Shown in pieces: positions 31-64,000 of a stretch of DNA of 64,000 nucleotides. Under the pieces are notes generated by a model that was not told the origin of the DNA, searched no databases, and was given only the letters and a program-made list of their open reading frames with translations. Position 1 is the first letter of the stretch. Each line of letters opens with the position of its first letter. Source of the stretch: Bryopsis sp. KO-2023 (lineage: Eukaryota > Chlorophyta > Ulvophyceae > Bryopsidales > Bryopsidaceae); the NCBI GenBank assembly GCA_030272585.1, contig BSYQ01000004.1, forward strand, positions 6,696,001 through 6,760,000, read 5' to 3'. The translations under genes were made by a program, and so were the position numbers.

Positions 31-2590
31 GATCCTCTGCAACATCTGAAGCTGATGCCAAGTCCAAGGGTGGACGAGTTGAGGTGAATAAAATTGCAGT
101 TGGATTTTCCCTCTTTCTTTTCTTGATGGATATGTACATTTTCTTTTTTTTTTTGTCCCCTAATAAAAACGTATTCACAACCATGCATGGATGCATACAT
201 GTACAGTTTGAAAGCAAGTCGTATAAATGTGCCCAAATGCAAATTTATAAATATCTGTGAGATACAGCCTGCACTCAGGACTGTTTGATTACATGCACCT
301 ATGTTAGGTTATCTCGAGGGCTGTGGGCGAGGCTTCCAGCGAACTGAAATCAGAAATCAACTCAGCCGTCGCAGAAGCTGTTGCTGAAGTCAAAGGCGGT
401 GGTGATGCCGATGCAACTGCAACTGCAGTGGCTGAGGAAATCGGACGGGCAACTGCTAGAGCTATCGCAAAAGCCAGTGTAAAGGTGGGCATAACTCCAC
501 AAATTTCAAGAAACAGCTTTTGTCCGATCGAAAAAAAAAGAAACAATAAAAATTCTGCTTGATTTGGTACAAGCTCTATTTGACTGCTTTGCTGCTGCAG
601 ATCAATGTGGAGGGTGCTGGCATTGGGAGTGGCGGTGCAGAGGCCAGCAGTAGAGCGATTGCGAAAATCACTGTGACCTCTATCGCGGAGGCTTTTGCCA
701 GTGCTACTGGGAGCTCGGAGGCCAGCTCCAAGGCCAGGGCTGAAGTTTCAGAAACTGATGTTGCGGAGGCTGCAGCGAATGCTGTTGCGAGGGCCGAAAG
801 CACCGATGGATTTGCTGAAGCTTCTCAAACGGTATTATCGCAAATTTTTCTCCACAGGGATGGGTTATGGAAGCCAAGTCCTCAGTTTTCTCAAGGGAAA
901 CAAATGTCCGAGCTCTGTATGGTCTGCTGTAGGCGATTCTTTGTCTCAGCAGGCTCTTCAGAAGTAGTCTCAAACAAAAACACGGAAAACATTGACCCCC
1001 TGCACACCTTACAGAGTTTTTGCAGTTTTCTGGGTCGAAAACGTGCGTTTTTTCGTGCAGCTAGTATTTCTGTTGCTTCTGGTGGCAGTCCAAAAAAAAT
1101 ATCAACAGAAAAAACGAGCCAATGAAGCATATGGGAGATCTCTTTTTGTGTCAAGAGAGTTTTTGAATTTTGTAGTGATTTTCTTTTTTTTTCTGCTTTT
1201 GATTTTTCTGCTGTCAGACTGTTGCCACAGCCGTTGCGGAAGTGATTGCCCGAGCTGTGGCATCAGCTCTTGCCACGGTGAAAGGAGGGAAATCGGTTGC
1301 AGAAACGGACGCTGAAGCTGAAGCTAACAAGGGTCCTGGTCAAGCAACTGTTGAAACTAAGAGCAAGGCCAAATCTCCAGGTGATGTTTTTCTGTGCTGT
1401 GATAAAAAAATAAAAAAATAAATATTTTGCCTGTGATACAGAAAACGAATCCATGAAGAAGATTTTGATGGCTGCAGGTCTCTTGAAGAATTTTGTAATT
1501 TTGATTTTTTTTTTTTTTTTGGGGGGGGGGGTGGGTGGGTCGGGTTTGATTTATTTGGTTTATTAAACTGATTTTTCTTATTTGTTCTATCTCCCATGAA
1601 ATTGTCCTGCTGCTGTGTTAGTAGTACGTACTCGTCTCAATTTTGTTGGTTATTGACTTTTGCTCAATGGATTTGTTTTAAAAGGGGGTACCTCTTGCCG
1701 CATTTTGATGGGAATTGATCTTCCCAGTGAGTCGACCATCAACAATGGAAGTGAGGATATAACTGGGTCTGATGCCGAGTGCTGCTCTCTGTGCGACAGC
1801 AGATCAGGTGGGGATTTTTCTTCTTCTTTTTTCCACTTAAATAGGAAGTATTGCTTCCTAATTTGAGTAAAATCATTTTTTCCTGCTGCTTTCCTAAGAT
1901 TTGCGAGAACCAATTGAGTTTTTTTTGTTGGAGAATGTTGCAGCTTGTTGAAATATTAGATTTGGAAGTGTTGTTGCCCTTTTTACTTTTTTTTTTAGTT
2001 TTTCAAGAGCAAGGGGTGTGCTTTGAAATCTTTCAAAAATATACAAAAAAAAATACATTTTTTGGGTATTTTTGAAACTGTAGATGCAAAATATAAATGG
2101 GAACATATAGTTGCTATGCGTCGTGTTTTTTTTCCCCTTTTTTCCCCCTGAATGACAGCATTTTTGTTTTCTTGATTTTGTTGGTGGAGTTTTTTTTCAG
2201 ACTGCAATGCTTGGACAAGGATTACTAGGGATACTGAGTGGAACCAGGAAGGCGAGTGCTGGATGAGAAATTCTGTTCCTGGAAAGGTTAACAAGGATTT
2301 CACAAACAGCGGAGTCAAATCAGGTCTGGTGATAAAAAGAGGGGAAATCTATGAAACACTCCAAAGGACTATATCAATTTTGGAACTCTGGAAATAATTT
2401 TTTCCACCCGTCTAAATGACTAAATTTAGATTTTGACAATTTAAATTATGGATGACTTTTTGGAAAATTTGGCCTGAATTGGCAGAAATAAAATTAAAAT
2501 TACTAAAATTAAAAAGTTATGTTTCTGTTTGCAGGTGGAGGATCAGCCTCCGCTTTTGGCGATGGGGATGCTTTCACCTCAGGGCCTTGA
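31..2590 (+). CDS. Ala-rich secreted-type protein with PAN/Apple-like C-terminus (5' partial)
   Basis: Seven exons can be followed: 31-83, 308-484, 601-831, 1218-1380, 1685-1807, 2201-2323 and 2535-2590 (TGA). Borders are GT-AG and phases agree. The first exon and presumed signal peptide lie outside the window. Exons 1-4 encode a low-complexity stretch of Ala, Glu, Ser, Gly and Thr with small-residue helices such as AVAEAVAEVKGGG and EASSRAIAKI. Exons 5-6 encode a cysteine module with the pattern C...ECCSLCDSR..DCNAW.R....GECWM followed by a GVKSG end. This fits the PAN/Apple fold (CC-x2-C, C-x-A-W, C-W, terminal S-G). Both PAN exons are 123 nt and phase 1-1. A short Gly/Ser/Ala tail closes the protein. 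PAN modules bind proteins or carbohydrates outside the cell. A cell-surface or wall role is inference. The gene at 50.4-52.0 kb has the same Ala-rich style. Confidence 0.72.
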
Positions 2591-8500: not shown

Positions 8501-8971
8501 TGAGTTTGGCCGCACCACACGACCCAGAGAGGTCTGTTTCAAGGCATCCCATCATTTGTCTGTCGGTGGTTCAGTGTCCCCCTCCAAATCGAGTGGCTGA
8601 TGCAAAGGTGGAGGTTGAGTCCTTTTTTCTTGGGATGGATTGAAAGGAGCGGTTAACTGCCTTTCAATTTTGAAAGTTCTGAATAGAAAAGTTTCGAATA
8701 CGAAGCTCATCTTCCTCCCTGTGGCAAACTCAAGCTTGAACTTCACCCAAGTCTTGTGTGAACGCGCGCGTTTTGGAAATGCACGTGAAATCGAATCCAA
8801 GAACATTGTTTCTTTGCACAAGCTTCTTCAAAGTCGAAAAAACTACCACATATGACGGCCCTTTTTACACAGTCCGTTAACATTAAGAATTTGCCATTCC
8901 CTCCAGTAATATCACTATCAAACGGCATCCAGAGTCTTCACCATAATACATATGTTTTGAGGTGCAATTTT
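5565..8971. other. Intergenic, 3.4 kb
   Basis: No supported gene. Open stretches of 60-140 codons occur on both strands (for example 5937-6362 minus, 8216-8542 minus and 8552-8821 minus). None has consistent splice signals, composition or a family motif. Poly(T) lies near 7866-7881, and T-rich and C-rich runs are frequent. Nothing recognisable as an RNA gene was seen. Confidence 0.5.
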
Positions 8972-9470
8972 CTACCAGAAATCCTCCCTAAAATTTTCCT
9001 TCCTCTCATCAAAGCAAAGTTCTTCCAAAAACCCCAACGCCAACAGCTCTTTCAACAGAAACTGGGCCGATTCGGTTACACTTCGTTTCCCATAAAACCT
9101 CATTTTTTTCAAAGGAAACCCTGCCTCCCTGCGAAGCAGCGATCCAAGCCCATCAAAATCCCCCACATCGAATGCATGGCACCCCACACCAGGAGATCGT
9201 AACACGTGCAATTCTTCGAGGCAAGAAGTGCTATGCTTCAGCTCCACCCACAAACTTTGCAAGGGAAAATATCCCCAACCGCAATGCAGCTTTCGAACCT
9301 TGCAACCTGGTCGACCCAGCCACGAAACCACCGACGAATCCACGACGGGGACTCTCAATCGAAGCAATGTTCTGCTCCGAAGAATGGCCTTCGTCAGCAT
9401 GGTTACCTGCTTTTCAGCGATGGATGTCAGCAGCAAACTGAAGCTTTGAATGGAAAGCCCCTCAAAACCA

Positions 9471-13766: not shown

Positions 13767-15039
13767 CTACCCAGTATTTCCCTTCCTTTCCCACAAACAC
13801 TCCATCAAGTTCCTTTTTATTCGGACACTCTCTTCTTTGTTTTCAACCCTTTCCACGAGATTACAGAAATCTGTAAAAGCATCCCCCGTTCCGTCAACAG
13901 CAAAAGACACATCGAAATCATCATCAATATCTCTATCAGAAGAATCATGGACAATTGCCATATTGTGTAGTAAAACACATGTGGTGACCATTTTCTTTAT
14001 GTCCTCAAGGCTTGTCAACCGGCATGATTCCCTCAACATGCTAAACTTTTTTTTCAAGACCCCGAAACATCGCTCGATATCTTTTCTAATAGATTCTTGA
14101 ACGGTTGTGAAGTGCTTTTCTTTAGCACTAGTGGGGTTGGAGATAGGGGATACAAAGCAAGCCCATGATGGGTATATGCCGTCCACAAGGTAATAGGCCA
14201 TGTCATGCTCCTGACCATTGACCTTATACCGTGCGTTTTTCCCATTCCCATTCAACATCACCGTTTGAAATGGACTTCCGTCTAAAATATTCAGGTCGTT
14301 GAGCGACCCAGGGCTGCCCACGTTCACGAAAGGAACAAACAAGTTCGAAAAACATACGGCTTCGATTACGATCGAGATTCTTTTTGTCCGATCCAAAAAC
14401 TGCCCAGCCCAATGTGTGGGGCACGCACTCCAATAGAGATGCGTACAGTCCAAACTCGCTAGCATCCCGGGCATACCACGCCTAGCGTTAATTTGCATTT
14501 CATGTTTGACTTCCGATTGGGTGGGGGGACGTAAAAAATTTGTGCCGTAAAGCTCAACAATCCCGTATATGAAGCGCTTAAAAGCTTCCGACGCAACGGT
14601 ACTAGAAACCCTGTAAGAATCTTCAATGGAATCTAATGGTGCTGAATAAGCTAGAATCCTGAAAGCAATCGTGAGTTTCACATATCCGTGTATTCCTAAT
14701 TTTCCCGTAGAGTCTGATTTTTGACGAAAATACGGATACTCCCGAAGAAAATCCGCGGCAATCCTCAAAAAAGTGGCCCTTGGCACCCTATACCTTGTGC
14801 GAAAAGATTCTTCATCGAAGAGGGGTTGCGGAATGAAGTAATCCGTCATGAGCCGTGAATAGGCATCCTTGTAGCCACGTTCGATATTTTTCGCTTTACC
14901 GATCCGAGAACCGCCTCGACTTCCTTGCACGACCGAATACAATGTATGGAGAGCCACACATAAGATTGTTGTGTCTTCTTCGTTTTGATAGTTTCTCCTC
15001 CTTCGTTCCCTTTCTCTTCTCTTTCTTCTTTTTTCCAAC
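13767..15039 (-). CDS. PIF/Harbinger DDE transposase
   Basis: An open frame ends with TAA at 13767 and runs without break through the whole catalytic domain. The start is unresolved. An acceptor-like CAG before 15039 opens the frame in phase 2, so a small upstream exon is likely; the first in-frame ATG is at 14849. The N-terminal part (LFDEESFRTRYRVPRATFLRI) matches the HARBI1/ALP1 helical region. The catalytic triad is visible: D in ASLDCTHLYW, D in GSLNDLNIL and E in RKDIERCFGVLKKKF. The C-terminal CVLLHNMAI is also typical. It would cut and paste the element with the help of the Myb-like partner. No stop or frameshift was seen, so activity is plausible. Confidence 0.88.
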
Positions 15040-15059
15040 CTGTCACATACGAAGTAGAA

Positions 15060-15917
15060 CAAACCCCACCCATTACTTGTTAACAACAACAGGAAATCCA
15101 CAGAAATTCTGGGTTTTTCTTTTAGAAAAAAAAAAAACCCCACCCATTAGGGATGTTGCGCAAAACTACGTAGCTCACAATTTACGTAGCCACGTCACGT
15201 ACGACAGCGTAATTTCGCGGAAAATTTCACTGATGCTGACAAGGATCCCCCGTTAAACGGAGTCCTGTTTGAAAAAAGTCAAAATACGTACGTAGAAAAC
15301 CTGCATTTCCGCGAAACTGGGCTGTCGTACGTGACGTGGCTAAGTAAATTGGAGCTACGTAGTTTTGCGCAACATCCCTATTACTTCTTAACGGCACCAT
15401 AAACACAGAAATTCTGGGTTTTTCTTTTGGAAAATAAAACCCCACCCATTACTTGTTAACAACAACAGGAAATCCACAGAAATTCTGGGTTTTTCTTTTG
15501 GAAAATAAAACCCCACCCATTACTTGTTAACAACAACAGGAAATCCACAGAAATTCTGGGTTTTTCTTTTAGAAAATAAAAAAAAAACCCACCCATTACT
15601 TCTTAACGGCACCATAAACACAGAAATTCTGGGTTTTTCTTTGGAAAATAAAACCCCACCCATTACTTGTTAACAACAACAGAACATCCACAGAAATTCT
15701 GGGTTTTTCTTTTGGAAAATAAAACCCCACCCATTACTTGTTAACAACAACAGAACATCCACAGAAATTCTGGGTTTTTCTTTTAGAAAATAAAAAAAAC
15801 CCCCACCCATTACTTCTTAACAGCACCATAAACACAGAAATTCTGGGTTTTTCTTTTGGAAAATAAAACCCCACCCATTACTTGTTAACAACAACAGAAA
15901 ATCCACAGAAATTCTGG
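15060..15917. repeat. Minisatellite with three-unit higher order, inside the Harbinger element
   Basis: About nine copies of a ~70-bp unit centred on CAGAAATTCTGGGTTTTTC and CCCCACCCATTACTT. Units come in two types: a TTGTTAACAACAACAG type (G) and a TTCTTAACGGCACCAT type (C). Reading left to right the order is G, C, G, G, C, G, G, C, G. The array therefore repeats as a ~215-bp trimer. The second unit is split by a MITE. Confidence 0.85.
15149..15379. mobile_element. 231-bp MITE nested in the minisatellite
   Basis: Long terminal inverted repeats of about 73 bp, starting AGGGATGTTGCGCAAAACTA, with a few mismatches. The element is flanked by ATT on both sides (15146-15148 and 15380-15382). Intact neighbouring units have a single CCCATTACTT at this position, which confirms a 3-bp target duplication. 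It has no coding capacity. Its ends differ from the host Harbinger element, so another transposase moved it. Confidence 0.85.
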
Positions 15918-17768: not shown

Positions 17769-19790
17769 TTAGGATTGTAAACCTGCTGAACGTATTGAAG
17801 CCATTTTGCTGATAATTAAAGCTAATTTGCCCGATGGCACCCTACTAAAAAGATCCTTGGGATTAGCCCATCGAAAAACATCTGAATGCAAAGAACGAAA
17901 GGAAGAATAAAAAGGACATTCAAAAAGAAAATGCCGTTCATCTTCCACCGCGGACCGACACAACCGACAAATCCTGTTTTCCCTTGGTACACCATTATAT
18001 CGTCCCACTTCCACTTCCAAGAAATGAATACCACAACGAAAACGAGTAAAGAAAACCCGAAGAGAAGTTGGTTTTAAAGTTGTCAAATACCGTTCAAATC
18101 TGAGGGAAAACTTAATATGCCGATACCAAGATATAACTCGAGATGCAGATGAACCGAAAACATGTTCAGCATGCATAGCTTTATAACGACGCTGAAATTC
18201 CGAAATGTCCACCAAAGTCGTAGAAGAAAATATCTTCTCCGGCCAAAACCGTCTGAAAAAACCCAAAATACGCCCAAACCAAGAAGATCGAGATGCGTGA
18301 TATTGATCAAAACCCCAACAAAACAATCTTCCATGCAATCGATCAACTGATAACCCAACCAACTTGTTCCAATATCGGCACAATTGCGACCAAAGTGCTA
18401 ATTCTAATGGATAACACCCTAATTCCCCGTACAGAACCTCCTTTGGCGTATATCGAGGCAAACGGAGGATACTTCTCATAAACTGGAGATGAATTGCTTC
18501 CAACAAACGCCACTGAGAAACTGTTAGGAATGGACCCCAAATAGGAAACCCATATCCTATACTGCCCAAAACATACACCTTAAAAAGATTGTATGCTACT
18601 TTTGGATCCTCAATTTTCAGAGCAAAAAGACGCGACAAAACAAACCCCATTGCTTTCCGACACTGTGCTAAAACATAATCAATATGCGACAAAAAAGGAT
18701 GATGAGAACTTGATGATAACCGAATTCCTAAATATGTATGGTCCTCTGAAATTGGTATAGAATGCTCATGAAAATGAAAAGAAGAAGACATAAGCTGCTG
18801 AAAAAAAACCATCAGAATCGTTTTGGAAAAATTTAAACCAATTCCCGAATATTGTTCCCATTCAATCAAAACCTGCAACACTTCCTTTACCCCAGACCAA
18901 CAATGTCCTGGTATCCCCGTATCATCTGCAAACATCATACATGGAATGGTCTCCCCACCCAAGGAAGGAGCAGCAATCCTCGAGTTCAATAAATCTTGGA
19001 GTGGCTCCTGATACAGACTATATAAAGAAGGACTTGCTGGACAACCTTGTAACACCCCGGCCCGAAGAGGTATCGGTACCGAAGTCCCTACTGATGCCTT
19101 TATAACGAAAGAAGAATGTTCGTATAAATACTGCCACATCTCCACATAGGCTTTTGAAAAACGAAAACAATAAAGAGTCTCCCACAAACGCCTATGTTGC
19201 ACCGAATCGTACGCCTTTCGAAAATCCAACCATAAAATAAAAAAGGGCAGACGCTGGTCCTTAGAATGAAACCAAAACAACCAAAAAAGAAAAAGATGAT
19301 CATTTGGAGAAAAATCTACATGAAATCCCGCCTGCAAATCTGAACGTAAACCGACACGACAATCTACAACCTCCATGCGACCCAATAATATATAAGAAAA
19401 AATCTTATATAGAGGAGACGTCAGGACTATGGGCCTGTAAAATTCAGGGACAGCACGATTACCCTTACCCTTGTAAAAAGGCCGTAGAATCCCTGTTAAC
19501 CAGCCCCTGGGGAATTGCTTACGATCCCAACACACCTGGTAAAAACCTGCCAAAATCCCAATGAGACAATCCTTGGCATCTTTAAAGAGGGCCGTTGGTA
19601 ACTCATCCAGTCCTGGAGCTGCATGACGTCGTAACCGCATAATTGCCCCCAACACTTCCTCCAATGTAATGGCATGCTCCAAAATACTGGTATCCTGCAC
19701 CGAAGTATGCTCAAAAAAAGAACGGTGGACAGTCGCTAAGGTGGTTCTAGTTGGAACGAAGAGAATGGATAAAAGGAGACATGACCAGAC
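17700..19790 (-). mobile_element. 5'-truncated LINE
   Basis: Approximate extent of the LINE copy around the reverse transcriptase. The 3' side is a low-complexity A/AAC-rich (plus strand) tract. No clear target duplication could be fixed by eye, so both ends are estimates. Confidence 0.6.
17769..19700 (-). CDS. Non-LTR retrotransposon reverse transcriptase
   Basis: One uninterrupted frame of about 643 codons, open a little further upstream without an ATG. RT motifs appear in order: PGLDELPTALFK, RPIVLTSPLYKIF, LWLDFRKAYDSVQH, GVLQGCPASPSLYSL and the active site MMFADDTG, then HTYLGIRLS. The C-terminal part holds the CCHC-like finger CRLCRSAVEDERHFLFEC found at the end of many LINE proteins. 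The usual N-terminal apurinic endonuclease is absent, which fits 5' truncation during target-primed insertion. No stop codons interrupt it, so the copy is fairly young. The frame is minus strand and ends in TAA at 17769. The exact clade was not determined. Confidence 0.88.
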   Translation of the reverse strand: MQDTSILEHAITLEEVLGAIMRLRRHAAPGLDELPTALFKDAKDCLIGILAGFYQVCWDRKQFPRGWLTGILRPFYKGKGNRAVPEFYRPIVLTSPLYKIFSYILLGRMEVVDCRVGLRSDLQAGFHVDFSPNDHLFLFWLFWFHSKDQRLPFFILWLDFRKAYDSVQHRRLWETLYCFRFSKAYVEMWQYLYEHSSFVIKASVGTSVPIPLRAGVLQGCPASPSLYSLYQEPLQDLLNSRIAAPSLGGETIPCMMFADDTGIPGHCWSGVKEVLQVLIEWEQYSGIGLNFSKTILMVFFQQLMSSSFHFHEHSIPISEDHTYLGIRLSSSSHHPFLSHIDYVLAQCRKAMGFVLSRLFALKIEDPKVAYNLFKVYVLGSIGYGFPIWGPFLTVSQWRLLEAIHLQFMRSILRLPRYTPKEVLYGELGCYPLELALWSQLCRYWNKLVGLSVDRLHGRLFCWGFDQYHASRSSWFGRILGFFRRFWPEKIFSSTTLVDISEFQRRYKAMHAEHVFGSSASRVISWYRHIKFSLRFERYLTTLKPTSLRVFFTRFRCGIHFLEVEVGRYNGVPRENRICRLCRSAVEDERHFLFECPFYSSFRSLHSDVFRWANPKDLFSRVPSGKLALIISKMASIRSAGLQS

Positions 19791-20894
19791 TGTAAAAAGG
19801 CTCTCTATTGTGAAGACTGTGTTTGACCTTCAATAGAGGCTTTTATGGAAAAACTGTCCTCTCGTTTTTCCGGAACCTCTCCTCTTGAATCGAAGTGTTG
19901 AATGCAGAAAGATCTATTGGGTCTGGCGTTGATGGCAAGTGGTTGATGGCAATTTTCTCTTTGCAACATATACGTAATGTATTTTTTTTTACTATTGTAT
20001 TGTTTTTTTTGGAGTTGGGGGTCGACGGTGACATTTTAGCAGCATTTTTGATACTTTTTTGTAAATTCAGTGGTGATGTCAATTTTTTCTAGTATGACTC
20101 AGTAGACTCCCACAAGCAAGATTTTTTCTTTGGCTTGTTTTTGAAGGAGGGCTTAGGATCCAGGAAGTTTTTTTGACGAGGTGATTGTTGGTATCAGGTT
20201 GCGATTGGGGCAAAGTGGCTCCTCAGGCAACATGTAATCATTGATTGATTAATTGAAGCTTCGAAACAAGAAGCAAGAAATACATTTCTCTAGGGTAAAA
20301 TCACAGGGAAGGGTGCTGACTGATCAATGCTGTCACTACTAACTACTTGTGGAGGCACCAAGCACCCCTGGGTCGCAAAGCATGGTTTGAGTTCGTTCCA
20401 AGCTTTTCAGAATACAAGCAACTAGCTCAACCCTTCCTTCCCGTGGTCATAGCAAATAGTGGACATCCCTGCAATTTCCATTGTAGCATAGCAACTCCCA
20501 TGCAATCGGAGGCACTTGTTATGAAGAGTCTATGAATTCCTGCACATTTTTTGGTTTCAAGCATTGCCCATACGACAATGCTACCTTTGATCTCCTTCCT
20601 GGAATTTTTTTCAAGTCTACAGCTGCAAGAACGTGGACACAAACCTCACATCGACCCCAACAATGGAAAGCTCCCAACCCAACAGCAAATGCTGCCCATC
20701 CCTGATTCCATCACTGGTAAGGAACTTCTCAAAAAGTCTTACACACCTGAATAGAACATCAGACAACATCTCCCTCTTTATTGATTTCTCAAAAAAAAAA
20801 AATCCACCTAAAAGAAAAAAACACACACATCCCTACTAAGTTTATGCAACGTAGCCAAAAAAAATGCAAACGAGAATAAAAAAAGGCATGCAAT
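19791..20894. other. Intergenic between LINE and PWWP gene
   Basis: Holds an imperfect inverted repeat near 19795-19842 (CTCTATTG and CAATAGAG). Probably also holds the 3' UTR of the PWWP gene. No exon supported. Confidence 0.5.
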
Positions 20895-55904: not shown

Positions 55905-58900
55905 ATGGAGGGGGCTGCAGCGGAAGACCTGGTTATAAAAGATCTAGACTCCGGTCGGAAGTTTGTCCTCAGTGGAGCCAACACGGAGGAAGCCTCGGTC
56001 AATGATTCGCTTTCCGGGCAACAGCTATCTATGAAGGAGTTCGATCGCCAGCTGGGGATTCGGACGGGACGGAGAAGTGCGGTGAGTCTTTTAATTTCAC
56101 CTCCGATGAATTTTCCGAAAGCGAACTGGGGCTTACGAAAAAAGTAAGAGGGGGTGCGTGTCCACTTATCGGCTGGACGTGTTATGAGAAATCGTTCCTC
56201 CCTGCAGAATAAGTTTTCGTTTCTGTTCCTAAGGATTTTTATTTTATTTTTTCTTCTCCAAAGGGGGGGGGGGGGTATCTTTTCGCATTTGGGAGGTCAC
56301 GTGGAAGGGATTTCTTTTTGCCGTTTTGTTTCCAACGTTTGGCCTCCCTTATGGGATCCAATTTCAACTTATAGGCTTCGCTAGGCGCGGTTTTTCTGTT
56401 TGGAATGAGCGTTGGGCCCAACAGGATAAAGAAAACAAAACGAAAAGACGTCCTTCTACGCTGGATACAAAACGGGGCTACGGGGCTCCCCGAGGGAGGA
56501 ACGACCTGCGTAAAGCTTCGCAAGGTTCCGAGTAGGTGCTGATGTGGTGTTTTTTTTTCCGTGGTGGTGTTTTTGATTTGAATTGAAACCCAAAGGATGC
56601 CAGCAGCGCAAGTACGAGCGACACGGGGTCCCCTCATGCTCCGGGACAGGATCTGGACGGGCTCTCGCCTCGACTGAAGCGTTTGAACGGGTGCGTGGCA
56701 CGTTTTCCTGTAGCCCTTCTTATCCAAAAAAAGAACAGAAAAAAGAAAAAAAACTCACAAAGGTCAAATTTCAGCAGGAGTCTGCGCAATAATACATAGA
56801 ACTTTCAATTTACATCGTTTTCATCTTATGTCAGATTTTTGTCGGGAACCCAAACCCCAAATCCATGTATTTTTTGTTTTTAATTTGGCAAAATTTTGCA
56901 TGTGATGGAAGGGATGCGTTCGTTCAGCCAGCCTTGTATGCTCTTTCCCTCGACCATTTCCCTTTTTCTTTGAAAAGGGGGGGGGGGTCCTGAAAGAAAT
57001 TATAATATGTATCTCCCCCAAAATAAACATAAAATATATGTACATCAATTGTTAAAAATCAAATTTTCTTAAGGAAAACAAGCAGGAAAAAATTTCAACT
57101 GATTTTTTTCCTGCAAGAAAGACGTATCAAGATGAAGTGACTGGATATTGACACAATATCCCCGAGCAATTGTAAATACCTGGGATGCAGGGAGGGGCAA
57201 AGTACATATATATTAATAACCCTGCCATCAACCCAGAGGGATTGGCTGTCATCTTCGCTACAATGTGTGTGTGTGTTTTTCAATACAAAAGAAAAACTCA
57301 CTTTTCTTTTTCCATTGAGAAGAACCAAGCGCGAACAACCCATTGCGTTTTTTATGACTAATGGCACAATGTGAAAAGTCGTGGAAAGTCGTGAAGCCGA
57401 GGTTTTTTTTGGGGGGAAACAGGTTTAAATTAGCAAAGGCCCTAAAAGATGGGTTATCCAGGAGGCGGGGAGATGGTTCTGATTCACCTAGTGCAACGGC
57501 GGAGTCACCATATGCAGTTACTCAGGTGAGTTTACACTAATTTGTTTTTGATTCTCAGGGTTTTGTTTTGAAGATATGGTCTTCTTTCTTTCTGTTAAAA
57601 TGTGTTGCGTCGAGGTTTATCAGCACCATGCTCCGCGTTTCTTGTGGAATCGAGCGATGGGGTTTTGGGTTTTTTTTTGCTAAACTGCTTGCAGGATTTT
57701 GCTTTCTTTTGCCAGAAAAGAAGTTTGGTAAAAAGCATATCTTGTGTATGGAATTTCGGTTTAACAAAATAAAATAAAACAAAATCATCCCTGGGTTGGA
57801 TTTTTTTTTCTTTTGGTAAGGTTATATGTGGAGGTGACCCTTTTTCTGTTTCTTCCTTTTTTTTTGGGGGGGGGGGAAATGTTGTGTTTGATTTTTTTTT
57901 TTATTCTGTGTGTTTTGCAGCCTTCCTTCACGCGCTATATGCCACATTCACCATATTCGACCTACACAGTTCAAAACACACCACAGTTACAAAGTTCGGC
58001 CACCATGAAAGTAGGGATCATAATAAGTCTTAAATATTCTTACACAAAAGATAACCATCAAACTTTTTGACAGTTGTCTTCTGTTAATTTTCCTTTCTGT
58101 TCAAAAGATGCCCCCCCCCCCAAAAAAAAAGGAGAAAAAAAGCACATATTATGTATATTTTTTAAACAGACTTCTCTCCTAAACTCGGAATCAACCACAT
58201 TTTATGTATTTAAATAAAAAACCCCTAGCCGCTGTGACATGAGAATATTTTTTCTTGTTTTCTTTTTTTCAAAACAAATTCAGGTTGCCTCTTATCGGCG
58301 GACGCAGCGGGATTTGTCTGACTTGAGACTGGTTCAGGAAATCAATGTACACAATGGGGTGGTGTCAGTCATGCGGTTCAGTCCCAATGGGGAATACCTG
58401 GTGACCGGGGGAAAGGATACAATCGTTTATCTGTGGGCTGTAGTTAGTAATAGGTGAGCCAGGATCCCTCCACATTGTTTTGGTAATTCTACATGCCCCC
58501 CCCCCCCAAAAAAAAAGGAAATAAAAAAAAAATTGTAGTTGGTTTTTTTTGCATTTTGTAGGTGGGGAAAAAGAATCTGATTTTTTTAATACCCACTGAT
58601 CATCGGAAGAGGGACTGTTACATTACAGAAGAGGATTTAGCATCCGTCGTGAATGCATCACACTTTTGGAGGGTGGAAATGTGTGATCGTTGGGGGTTCG
58701 ATGTGACAGGGGTAAAGATATGAAGGAGGGATGCAGAATCGATCTGCCAGTGGTGGAGCCGGAGCCCGTTCGCAGGTGGAAAGGTCACACTTCCCACGTT
58801 TTAGACATCGCCTGGTCGTTCGGGTCGGAGCTCGTCTTATCGGCATCGATGGACAAAACCGTTCGACTGTGGACGTTATCTCAAGATGCTTGCCTGCGGG

Positions 58901-60930
58901 AAATTCCTCATCAAACATGGGTCACATCGATACGCTTTCACCCGCAGGATCCGGGGAAATTTGTATCAGGTGGGGCATCTCTTTTTTCAATATGTTTTGG
59001 GGAGATGGTCGATACTTTTTTTAAATTTGAAAGCGTTTTTATTTGTAGGCCCTCCAGGATGAAATATGAATATTGAAAATTTCAATAAAAAAAAGGATCC
59101 ATTCCATTGTGGCTGGTATAGTTTTCCTTTTTTTTTCCTTTTTTTGAAACAAAAGAGAGGGGGGGGGGGCGCTGGATTGGCTCGGAAGCTCAGTGGATGG
59201 GTGGCGTTTCATTGTTGCTTAAAAGAAGTTGATGTGGGAATCAATTGTTGGACAAAAGAGGGAGGGGGGGAAAAAACTGTGGTGTTTCGATTTCAGGGTG
59301 TGGGGATGGGGTTCTTCGGCTATGGGATGTGATGGCACGGAAAGTTGTGGGCTCGGCAAGCATCGCTAATGAAAAGGATTTGTACACGGCGTTATGTTTC
59401 AATGGGGATGGAAGAATGTTGCTGGCTGGTGAGGTCTACCTATCATTTTTTTCTTCTTTTCTTTTTTGGGGGGGAGTGCTGTTCGAGAGTTTGCTTTCTC
59501 TCTCTGTGAAGGTTGTGACCAAAAAAGATGGAGGGTGCGGCCACATTGCTCCACAGAATTTGTTGTTTTGAAATGGGCAAATTTCAGAATGCGCTGCGAA
59601 ACCAGCAACATTTTGCAATAGCCCAGTCTATGGTCATGTCACACTTTTTTGGATCTCTCACTCTGTTTTCCTCGATTGACGGCCCTGATTGATTTGATAG
59701 GTAGCTTGAGAGGCAAGTGCCGGTTGTATCAGATTTTCAACAGCAAAATCGAAATCAAAGCTGAAATCGATGTCCGAAATCGACGAGGGCGGCATGCGAG
59801 GGGTAGAAAAGTCACTGGCATCGATTTCACATCCGTGGGAGGTCAACCCAGGTTTCTCGTCACCACCAGTGATTCAAGAATTCGAATGTTGCAGGTCGGG
59901 ATTGGAAAACTTACTTTGGGTGGAAAAGATGAGTGTGTTACGTGGCAAGCCCTGGTCATCTGTTACGGAATCCTGAAGTGCTGTGAGTGTGTTTCATGCC
60001 ATCCAAATAGCACAGCATCTTATTTACCGTTTTGAGTTCTTATTTTCCCATTTTGTTGTGAATTCTCCAGGCCAGCACATCGGCTCCTTCCGAGGTTTCC
60101 AAATTCAAAGGTCACACAAATGAGTCAGACCGACTCATTGTGGCGACATCCTCGTCCAAAGGGGATTATGTAATCTGTGGTTCGGACGATGGCCGAGTGT
60201 TTGTTTGGCCAGCAAGTGCGGTGAGTGCTCCTCAATACATTCTGGCTTTTATATATTTTTCCCGATAGTAGTCTTTACTGTAGCATGTAGCCAATACGGT
60301 TTCTGATCGAAAAGCAGAAAAAGGAATAATTTTCAATCTTTGGGTGTGTTTTCCTTTCTTTTTCAAATGGCATGCCCTAAGCAAAATTCAAAATCAATCA
60401 AAATTATCAAAGTTCATGTTGGAAGTCGGATAGGATTTGCAGTGTGCTCAGCGGGGGGGGGGGGGGTAGAGGAGATTCAAAAGATGAATTAGGAGTGTTG
60501 GGATGCCGATCAGAATTCCTCAACCACACCTCCGGTTGACTTGAAACAAGACCTCATGTTTTCGTGTGTGTCTGGTGTTCAGACGGAGGCCTCGTCATCC
60601 CCACGAACATACGGCCACGTGGGCACTCGGGAAAAGGTGTCCGCTTTCGAGAGCTACAAAGCCCACGACGGCTACACCACCTCTGCGATTTTCGCTCCAG
60701 AAAATTGCCAGCGGCCCATGACCTGTTTGGCATCCGTCGACTGTGAACCCAATGCAGCCACCACTCCTGTCGGCAGATTGAGAATTCAACACAAAATCTT
60801 AATGCCACAAATTTCGGATGGTTGTGAAAAGGGGCTGGGCCTGTGGGGGCAAGTCATCGTGACGGCTGGTCAAGGGGGTGAAATCAGAGTGTGGGAAAAT
60901 TTTGGGCTGCCAGATCAAGGTTATGCATGA
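55905..60930 (+). CDS. WDR44-like WD40-repeat protein
   Basis: Ten exons in phase: 55905-56081, 56596-56690, 57423-57525, 57921-58010, 58284-58453, 58710-58969, 59297-59428, 59701-59894, 60071-60220 and 60583-60930 (TGA). They give 572 residues. The only in-frame ATG at the 5' end gives MEGAAAEDLVIKDLDSGRKF. The plant WDR44 family shares this IKDLDSG-K-F start and the following QLSMKEFDRQLG. After a Ser-rich linker come seven WD repeats: INVHNGVVSVMRFSPNGEYL..D.IVYLW, WKGHTSHVLDIAW..DKTVRLW, WVTSIRFHPQDPGKFVSGG..DGVLRLWD, LYTALCFNGDGRMLLAG..GKCRLY, GRKVTGIDF..RIRML, RLIVATSSSKGDYVICGSDDGRVFVW, and YKAHDGYTTSAIFAP..GGEIRVW. This is a propeller for protein contacts. Human WDR44 binds Rab11. The function in green lineages is not established. 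Confidence 0.92.
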
Positions 60931-63018: not shown

Positions 63019-64000
63019 CTAAGTGACATTGCTTTTGTTATTTCTGCTGTGGTCCACAGACATGCTGCTACTGTTATTTCTTTCCAAAGCCTGCTCCTCG
63101 TCGAATATCCGATCTATGTCAATGTCGCTGAACTCGCACCCATGCCGGTAGCATGCATCCATGATGGCATTTCTGATTTTAGAATCCCGCACGACGGTCG
63201 ACCCCATCCTCAACATTTTCTCGTTCTCCTCCAGCATCCGTTCGTTCATTTCCCTGGCCTCCGTCGGGAAATTCTTCGTGAACCACTCGTTTTCGAAAAT
63301 CTTCTCCACCGTGATACGATCACGAGGGTTGGGTGCCAAAAGATGCTGAAGGAGATCCACACACGATGCTGAGAGGTGGGAGGGGTAGGAGCGCTCCCCT
63401 CTATCAAAGAAGGCGACCAAGTTCTTACGATAGCAGTCTTTCTGGTTGCTGCCTTGGTTGGAATTCTCGTGGGTGGTGAACGGGTAGGAGCCACAGAGCA
63501 TTGTGAACAGCAACACCCCACAAGACCAGATGTCAGCCTTGAACAAGTCGTATCCTTCATCTCCTTCCACACATTCTGGAGCCAAATAGTCTAGCACAGC
63601 ATCATGCGACCTGAACACCAATAAAAACAACATTCATTAGCTACAATCTGCACATACACACCCCCAAAAAAAGCTAGAGAAATTAGGTGGCAGTGAGCAA
63701 GCAGCACTGCCATCCAAGTTCTAATCAAGCAACACGACGGAAGCGTCGTTGATCGTGACGGTGGATGGCAACGGCCACATGACCGACATGCAAGCCTCCA
63801 ACACGAAGAGCGCAGACCACAAATGGTGACTTACCTTGCGTCCTTACCACCGGAGTCCCCATCGTAAACAAAACCCCACAGCTTGACGATCGGCAACAAT
63901 GCCCCCTCCTTCAGAAGGACGTTCTCCAAACGAATGTTCTTCAACCAATGGTTACTGCTGTGACAAAAGTGCACCGCGATAATGACCTGCTGGAAAAACC
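63019..64000 (-). CDS. SnRK2-like protein kinase fold, catalytically dead (5' part outside)
   Basis: Two exons are visible: 64000-63835 and 63610-63019 (TAG), joined in phase. The first reads FFQQVIIAVHFCH, aligned without gaps to the SnRK2 FFQQLISGVSYCH helix. Where the family has HRDLKLEN it reads LKNIRLEN: the catalytic Asp is Asn and His is Leu. Where DFG is expected it reads GFV (VKLWGFVYDG). The APE motif (DYLAPECVE) and helix F (ADIWSCGVLLFTMLCGSYPF) are kept, as are RITVEKIFENEWFTKNFP and an acidic C-terminal tail (CEFSDIDIDRIFDEEQ). The fold is therefore preserved while phosphotransfer should be lost. SnRK2 kinases act in osmotic-stress and ABA signalling; this one could be a scaffold or decoy. 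Upstream exons, including the ATP-binding lobe, are not in the window. Confidence 0.85.

Follow-up and report, generated by a model that had tools for sequence, protein, structure and literature searches.

Gene structure and surroundings

The window analysed here is a 64,000-nucleotide stretch of the assembly of Bryopsis sp. KO-2023 (contig BSYQ01000004.1; G000:C4:6696001-6760000), and the searches described below covered the genome of 91,088,769 bases in 28 contigs. At the end of the window, on the minus strand, lies a gene of two exons encoding a kinase-like protein of 367 codons plus stop (TAG at 63021-63019). Its ATG, which is preceded by an in-frame stop, is located 346 bases past the window end and was taken from the same genome. 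The gene is laid out as follows:

Extended coordinate 64346 (ATG = G000:C4:6760346) to 63835, minus strand: exon 1, full
63835..64000, minus strand: 3′ part of exon 1, with helix E, the catalytic loop LKNIRLEN, and GFV where DFG is expected
63611..63834, minus strand: intron of 224 nt, phase 2, in the activation loop, GTAAGT...TTCAG
63019..63610, minus strand: exon 2, with the end of the activation loop, APE, helices F to I, and the post-kinase tail with the acidic stretch EFSDIDIDRIFDEE

The splice sites match the consensus, and the G+C content at the three codon positions is 0.51/0.37/0.69 versus 0.48 in the intron. The pyrimidine-rich TTTTCAAG immediately 5′ of the ATG might be the acceptor for an additional 5′ exon; the extra 5′ exons that our spliced aligner proposed on the merged stretch were spurious, and the two-exon model was kept. 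A DNA search of the genome with the gene returned one match, the gene itself, a result in which missing matches are no proof of absence.

Elsewhere in the window, a WD40 gene, which we read as having several exons, occupies approximately 58290-60930 on the plus strand and is convergent with the kinase-like gene; one of its exons gives a WD40 match of 7.8e-14, and a CAF1B/HIR1 propeller match falls below its cut-off. Two long open frames on the minus strand encode a Plant_tran/DDE_Tnp_4 transposase (13770-15146, 1.4e-61) and an RVT_1 reverse transcriptase (17772-19829, 2.2e-18), the latter LINE-like by our reading. Similarly worded low-complexity stretches rich in Ala and Ser lie about 71 kb apart, at window positions 550-1122 (plus strand) and at 8668-9237 (minus strand) of L002, the stretch from which the 5′ part of the kinase-like gene was read.

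Kinase domain and catalytic residues

To characterise the protein we compared it with kinase profiles and aligned it with all models from the genome together with rice SAPK10 and SRK2E. The whole protein matches Pfam Pkinase over residues 25-281 with 125.2 bits against a cut-off of 31.7 (4.1e-36; 1.2e-24 for the part inside the window), which is far above chance, while all five matches in an NCBIfam scan fell below their cut-offs. The segment FFQQVIIAVHFCHSSNHWLKNIRLENVLL (minus strand) aligns with SAPK10 without interruption as far as the end of the catalytic loop, and the first gap follows after it. A sequence-only reading of the window had described this gap-free SnRK2-type segment ahead of the catalytic loop, LKN in place of HRD, GFV in place of DFG, and a retained APE motif, helix F and C-lobe in an open, spliced frame; the alignment and the 367-codon model bear out each of these observations.

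Motifs are given here in PKA numbering and with their established roles. At the CDFG position the protein reads WGFV, followed by DYLAPE..DIWSCGV. Besides HRD > LKN and DFG > GFV, the helix-C Glu E91 is replaced by Leu, K168 by Arg and the P+1 Thr by Val; the K168 and P+1 changes lie inside the window and had not been mentioned before, while E91 and the Gly loop are encoded outside it. Inspection of the 5′ exon, which had been proposed as a check, revealed that the VAIK Lys (K72) is kept within VLIK, where the Ala two residues ahead of it has become Leu, and that the Gly loop is worn, its first glycine being replaced by Gln. Also kept are N171, APE, the helix-F Asp, the Trp and Gly of the helix-F region, and the C-lobe Arg R280.

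A kinase domain is a pseudokinase by sequence when at least one of the VAIK Lys, HRD Asp and DFG Asp is absent and the domain frame is open. Here two of the three residues are gone from an open frame, and neither the HRD Asp nor the DFG Asp expected of a catalytically active eukaryotic protein kinase is present. An alternative exon supplying HRD and DFG had been named as an observation that would overturn this picture. No such exon was found in the 11.3 kb around the gene: a six-frame motif scan of 11,282 bases gave no match, and spliced alignment with the exons of the gene masked yielded scattered short chains only, scoring 62 (minus strand) and 46 (plus strand) versus 438 unmasked, with a single shuffled control run scoring 27, below both masked values.

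Placement in the SnRK2-like family

To place the gene we modelled 49 genome stretches (42 + 7) with a purpose-written spliced aligner, starting from lists of 90 and 115 matches. We count 41 of the models as SnRK2-like, including the window gene and the poorly modelled L022, and by our reading the remaining eight are other kinases (L017, a SnRK1 gene; L043 and L054, which are CDPK-like; and five others). The trees omit L022 and five other kinases (L060, L059, L058, L055 and L075).

The best solved matches of the protein are SAPK10 (117 bits, 1.5e-32) and CIPK23 (112 bits), and since these scores are nearly equal, the best match alone does not place the gene. The intact relative L041, by comparison, matches SRK2E with 249 bits, followed by an SNF1-type kinase with 156 bits. 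In the best tree the gene groups with L041, L035 and L050 (support 94/87, or 86/89 after adding CIPK23; neither value pair is starred), on an end branch of 1.93 (1.74 in the tree with CIPK23) as compared with 0.35 for L041 and 0.44 for L035. L066 and L073, in contrast, join SAPK10 and SRK2E (94/93). In AU tests, uniting the gene with the strict SnRK2s gave p 0.065, short of rejection, and uniting it with the SnRK1/CIPK/CDPK kinases was not rejected either (p 0.36), so that the tree alone leaves the placement unsettled. The best tree assigns the gene to a putative side branch within a large family of SnRK2-like kinases, apart from the land-plant SnRK2s, and its kinship to the intact L041 and L035 has moderate tree support.

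L041 (C6:4988726) and L035 (C6:4432773) share with the gene the column and phase of the intron and a similar post-kinase segment (MNER, LNDR, MNDK). Over 260 codon columns they are 39% and 33% identical to it, respectively, but they keep NRD, DFG, K168 and E91, which the window gene lacks.

The sole intron of the gene, in phase 2 near residue 151, occupies an activation-loop column at which 8 of the 49 models have a phase-2 intron (L029, L053, L052, L007, L035, L041, L050 and the gene itself); phase-0 introns occur at other columns in up to 19 models. This phase-2 intron is missing from the modelled SnRK1, CDPK and strict SnRK2 genes. The introns of L066 and L073 lie at other sites, and where the strict SnRK2 gene L066 is interrupted, e.g. 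near reference residues 112 and 143, the window gene has no intron. The models carrying the intron are not one group in the best tree: L029 and L053 share the intron yet branch elsewhere, and L051 lacks it though grouped with L052 and L007 inside the wider branch. The intron speaks for the side branch but is not proof of it. A retrocopy origin of the gene was also considered and is countered by the retained intron.

The tail is less regular. By eye, EFSDIDIDRIFDEE resembles the tails of L052 (NFSDDFIDATLDEE) and L007 (LSDEYADEALDEE), and also that of L010; the acidic tail is shorter in L041 and absent from L035 and L050, near relatives of the gene. The motif of SnRK2 regulatory domain I (the SnRK2 box), which we take to be QS..EI..I. 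past the kinase domain, aligns with a worn stretch of the protein, VVRDSKIRNAIMDA, where L041 reads QSAQQISNLIE.

Known systems offer partial parallels. One is offered by Tribbles, pseudokinases of the wider CAMK group with an altered DFG and a partner-binding tail. Land-plant SnRK2s carry a C-terminal acidic stretch known as acidic domain II. SAPK10 and SRK2E share with the gene the kinase domain, the ungapped segment from helix E to the catalytic loop, and the acidic C-terminal stretch, but they have both catalytic Asp residues and stand apart in the best tree. A passage of PMC6344539 likewise designates the acidic stretch of SnRK2s as acidic domain II, and the same paper describes CKIN2 A/B of Chlamydomonas, a chlorophyte SnRK2 expansion that is also a large, divergent SnRK2-like set with variable tails; its main text contains no word starting with 'inactive', 'pseudo' or 'aspart'.

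Loss of catalytic residues is not confined to the window gene. Among the 41 SnRK2-like models the HRD Asp is missing in five (the window gene, L023, L024, L032 and L022) and the DFG Asp in two (the window gene and L056), so at least one Asp is lost in five members plus the poorly modelled L022, and both are lost in the window gene only. L041 and L035, its nearest intact relatives, retain both. On a tree of 46 rows holding 40 SnRK2-like genes of the genome, with L022 left out and several forks weak, the fewest changes to the state 'an Asp lost' number five. L050 (G000:C6:6262909-6264009, minus strand) keeps both Asp residues, reading CGDLNLEK for HRDLKLEN and DFW for DFG; its HRD Arg is changed to Gly, K168 to Asn, N171 to Lys, the DFG Gly to Trp and the helix-F Asp to Asn, and L050 is likely a second impaired kinase in the branch of the window gene. 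Contig C5 bears 17 of the 41 models between approximately 0.16 and 4.89 Mb (L012, L014, L022-L026, L028, L030-L032, L044, L051, L057 and L070-L072), among which L023, L024 and L032 have worn catalytic loops. We tentatively suggest, as one possibility, that in this giant-celled alga the SnRK2-like family repeatedly gave rise to non-catalytic members, which form a layer of binding-only regulators above their active paralogues; the window gene would be the member that lost both Asp residues.

Constraint, decay and possible function

The reading that we consider probable from these sequence data is that the gene is genuine and protein-coding and that its product is a catalytically dead, fast-evolving pseudokinase of the SnRK2-like family, of which this siphonous green alga has many members. 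Since the catalytic residues are gone and much else looks preserved, the protein probably acts through partner binding and not through catalysis. It would fold as a kinase C-lobe. Binding of Mg-ATP and phosphate transfer would be lost according to established kinase knowledge, given that the DFG Asp and the helix-C Glu are gone, the VAIK Ala is Leu and the Gly loop is worn. Through the kept C-lobe and the acidic tail the protein may then occupy partners common to the intact paralogues and so limit or place phosphatases, upstream kinases or substrates in the manner of a decoy or scaffold. Competition or scaffolding of this kind would be the likeliest mechanism, and selection for a non-catalytic role, as the sequence-only reading had suggested, is plausible. 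The evidence comes from the genome of one species, in which the long end branch is also what relaxed constraint would give.

The main alternative, unlikely though to be taken seriously, is that the gene has only recently become non-functional and is at an early stage of decay, with its frame still open and no present selection. In line with such a loss, the end branch is long (1.93), motifs beyond the two Asp residues are also worn, and the gene keeps 24 of the 31 non-catalytic residues that are invariant in 27 intact sequences (2/8 of the catalytic ones). Other rows keep 21 (L050), 23 (L072), 24 (L049), 25 (L056 and L044), 27 (L024) and 28 (L071), so that 24/31 is among the low values in the comparison of 15 rows, most diverged paralogues keeping more. 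The contrast between catalytic and non-catalytic residues, which counts for the pseudokinase reading, gives a Fisher value of 0.0098, which is post hoc, as the gene was chosen for it; the contrast is stronger in L032 (0.00096).

Against mostly neutral divergence stands the absence of stops. In neutral simulations starting from the L041 frame, with substitutions only and an assumed base make-up, 14, 1, 0 and 0 of 500 frames remained open at 0.1, 0.2, 0.3 and 0.53 changes per site, the last two values corresponding to 52% and 34% identity. This speaks against a long neutral drift of the gene and leaves room for a recent loss of function; together with the kept splice sites and codon bias, it restricts decay to a late loss. 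Codon comparisons point the same way. The gene and L041 differ by 0.52/0.37/0.65 at the three codon positions and agree at 0.43 of 35 fourfold sites versus 0.29 expected at saturation; the fourfold agreement with L035, L050, L052 and L007 is 0.45, 0.25, 0.33 and 0.39 against expectations of 0.34, 0.26, 0.33 and 0.32. Synonymous change is thus near saturation and change at second positions is not. Coding constraint has acted on the gene across much of its divergence. Branch-wise omega adds weak evidence only: lnL was -4943.3 with one omega, -4947.1, a worse fit, with omega 1 on the branch of the gene, -4945.4 with omega 0.5 there, and -4953.7 with omega 1 on L050, while leaving omega free on the gene's branch gave -4945.8, worse than the simpler model and hence an optimiser shortfall. 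Omega is poorly measured here because synonymous sites are near saturation, several branch lengths sit at their bound and the free-omega run fell below the simpler model.

It is improbable that the gene encodes an atypical active kinase with relocated or substitute residues, of which a few cases among pseudokinases have been reported: the VAIK Lys and the catalytic-loop Asn are kept, and PMC9403797 reports kinase activity for the Arabidopsis pseudokinase ILK1, but the HRD Asp, DFG Asp, K168, E91 and P+1 Thr have all changed. Least probable of all is the strict SnRK2 pseudokinase of ABA or osmotic signalling that the sequence-only reading envisaged; SAPK10 is the best solved match and the AU test stops short of formal rejection, but this genome has strict SnRK2s of its own, L066 and L073, which fall together with SAPK10 and SRK2E and have other intron sites, the alga looks like a chlorophyte, and the land-plant ABA receptor is not known from chlorophytes. 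What stands of the proposed SnRK2 identity is membership of the SnRK2-like family in the best tree; assignment to the strict SnRK2s is not supported, given the near tie of SAPK10 and CIPK23 and a best tree and intron site that set the gene apart, though the AU p of 0.065 falls just short of rejecting it. The charophyte and osmotic-stress frame of that reading is not supported either, as the light-harvesting proteins of the genome are of bryopsidalean chlorophyte type, and these proteins rule out a charophyte origin.

Pseudokinases are common. In the titles and abstract openings of open-licence papers we found no SnRK2-like pseudokinase. A genome in which a kinase family has both intact and dead members is a natural test, outside land plants, of how non-catalytic members arise in such a family.

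Siphonaxanthin complexes belong to siphonous algae, and the 'Bry' of Bry-Lhcb1 presumably stands for Bryopsis. A light-harvesting exon of the genome is approximately 98% identical to Bry-Lhcb1 (8hlv; 123/126) and to Lhcb-d of 9jzr (124/127); its best E-value is to LHCI-2 of 9vfj, a protein of 620 residues in which several domains match, all of them with lower similarity. Open frames of 200 aa were absent at the two light-harvesting loci inspected. Genome-wide, the chlorophyll a/b-binding family gives 107 exon-level matches, among which some pairs score equally, and the genome seems to hold a large set of light-harvesting genes.
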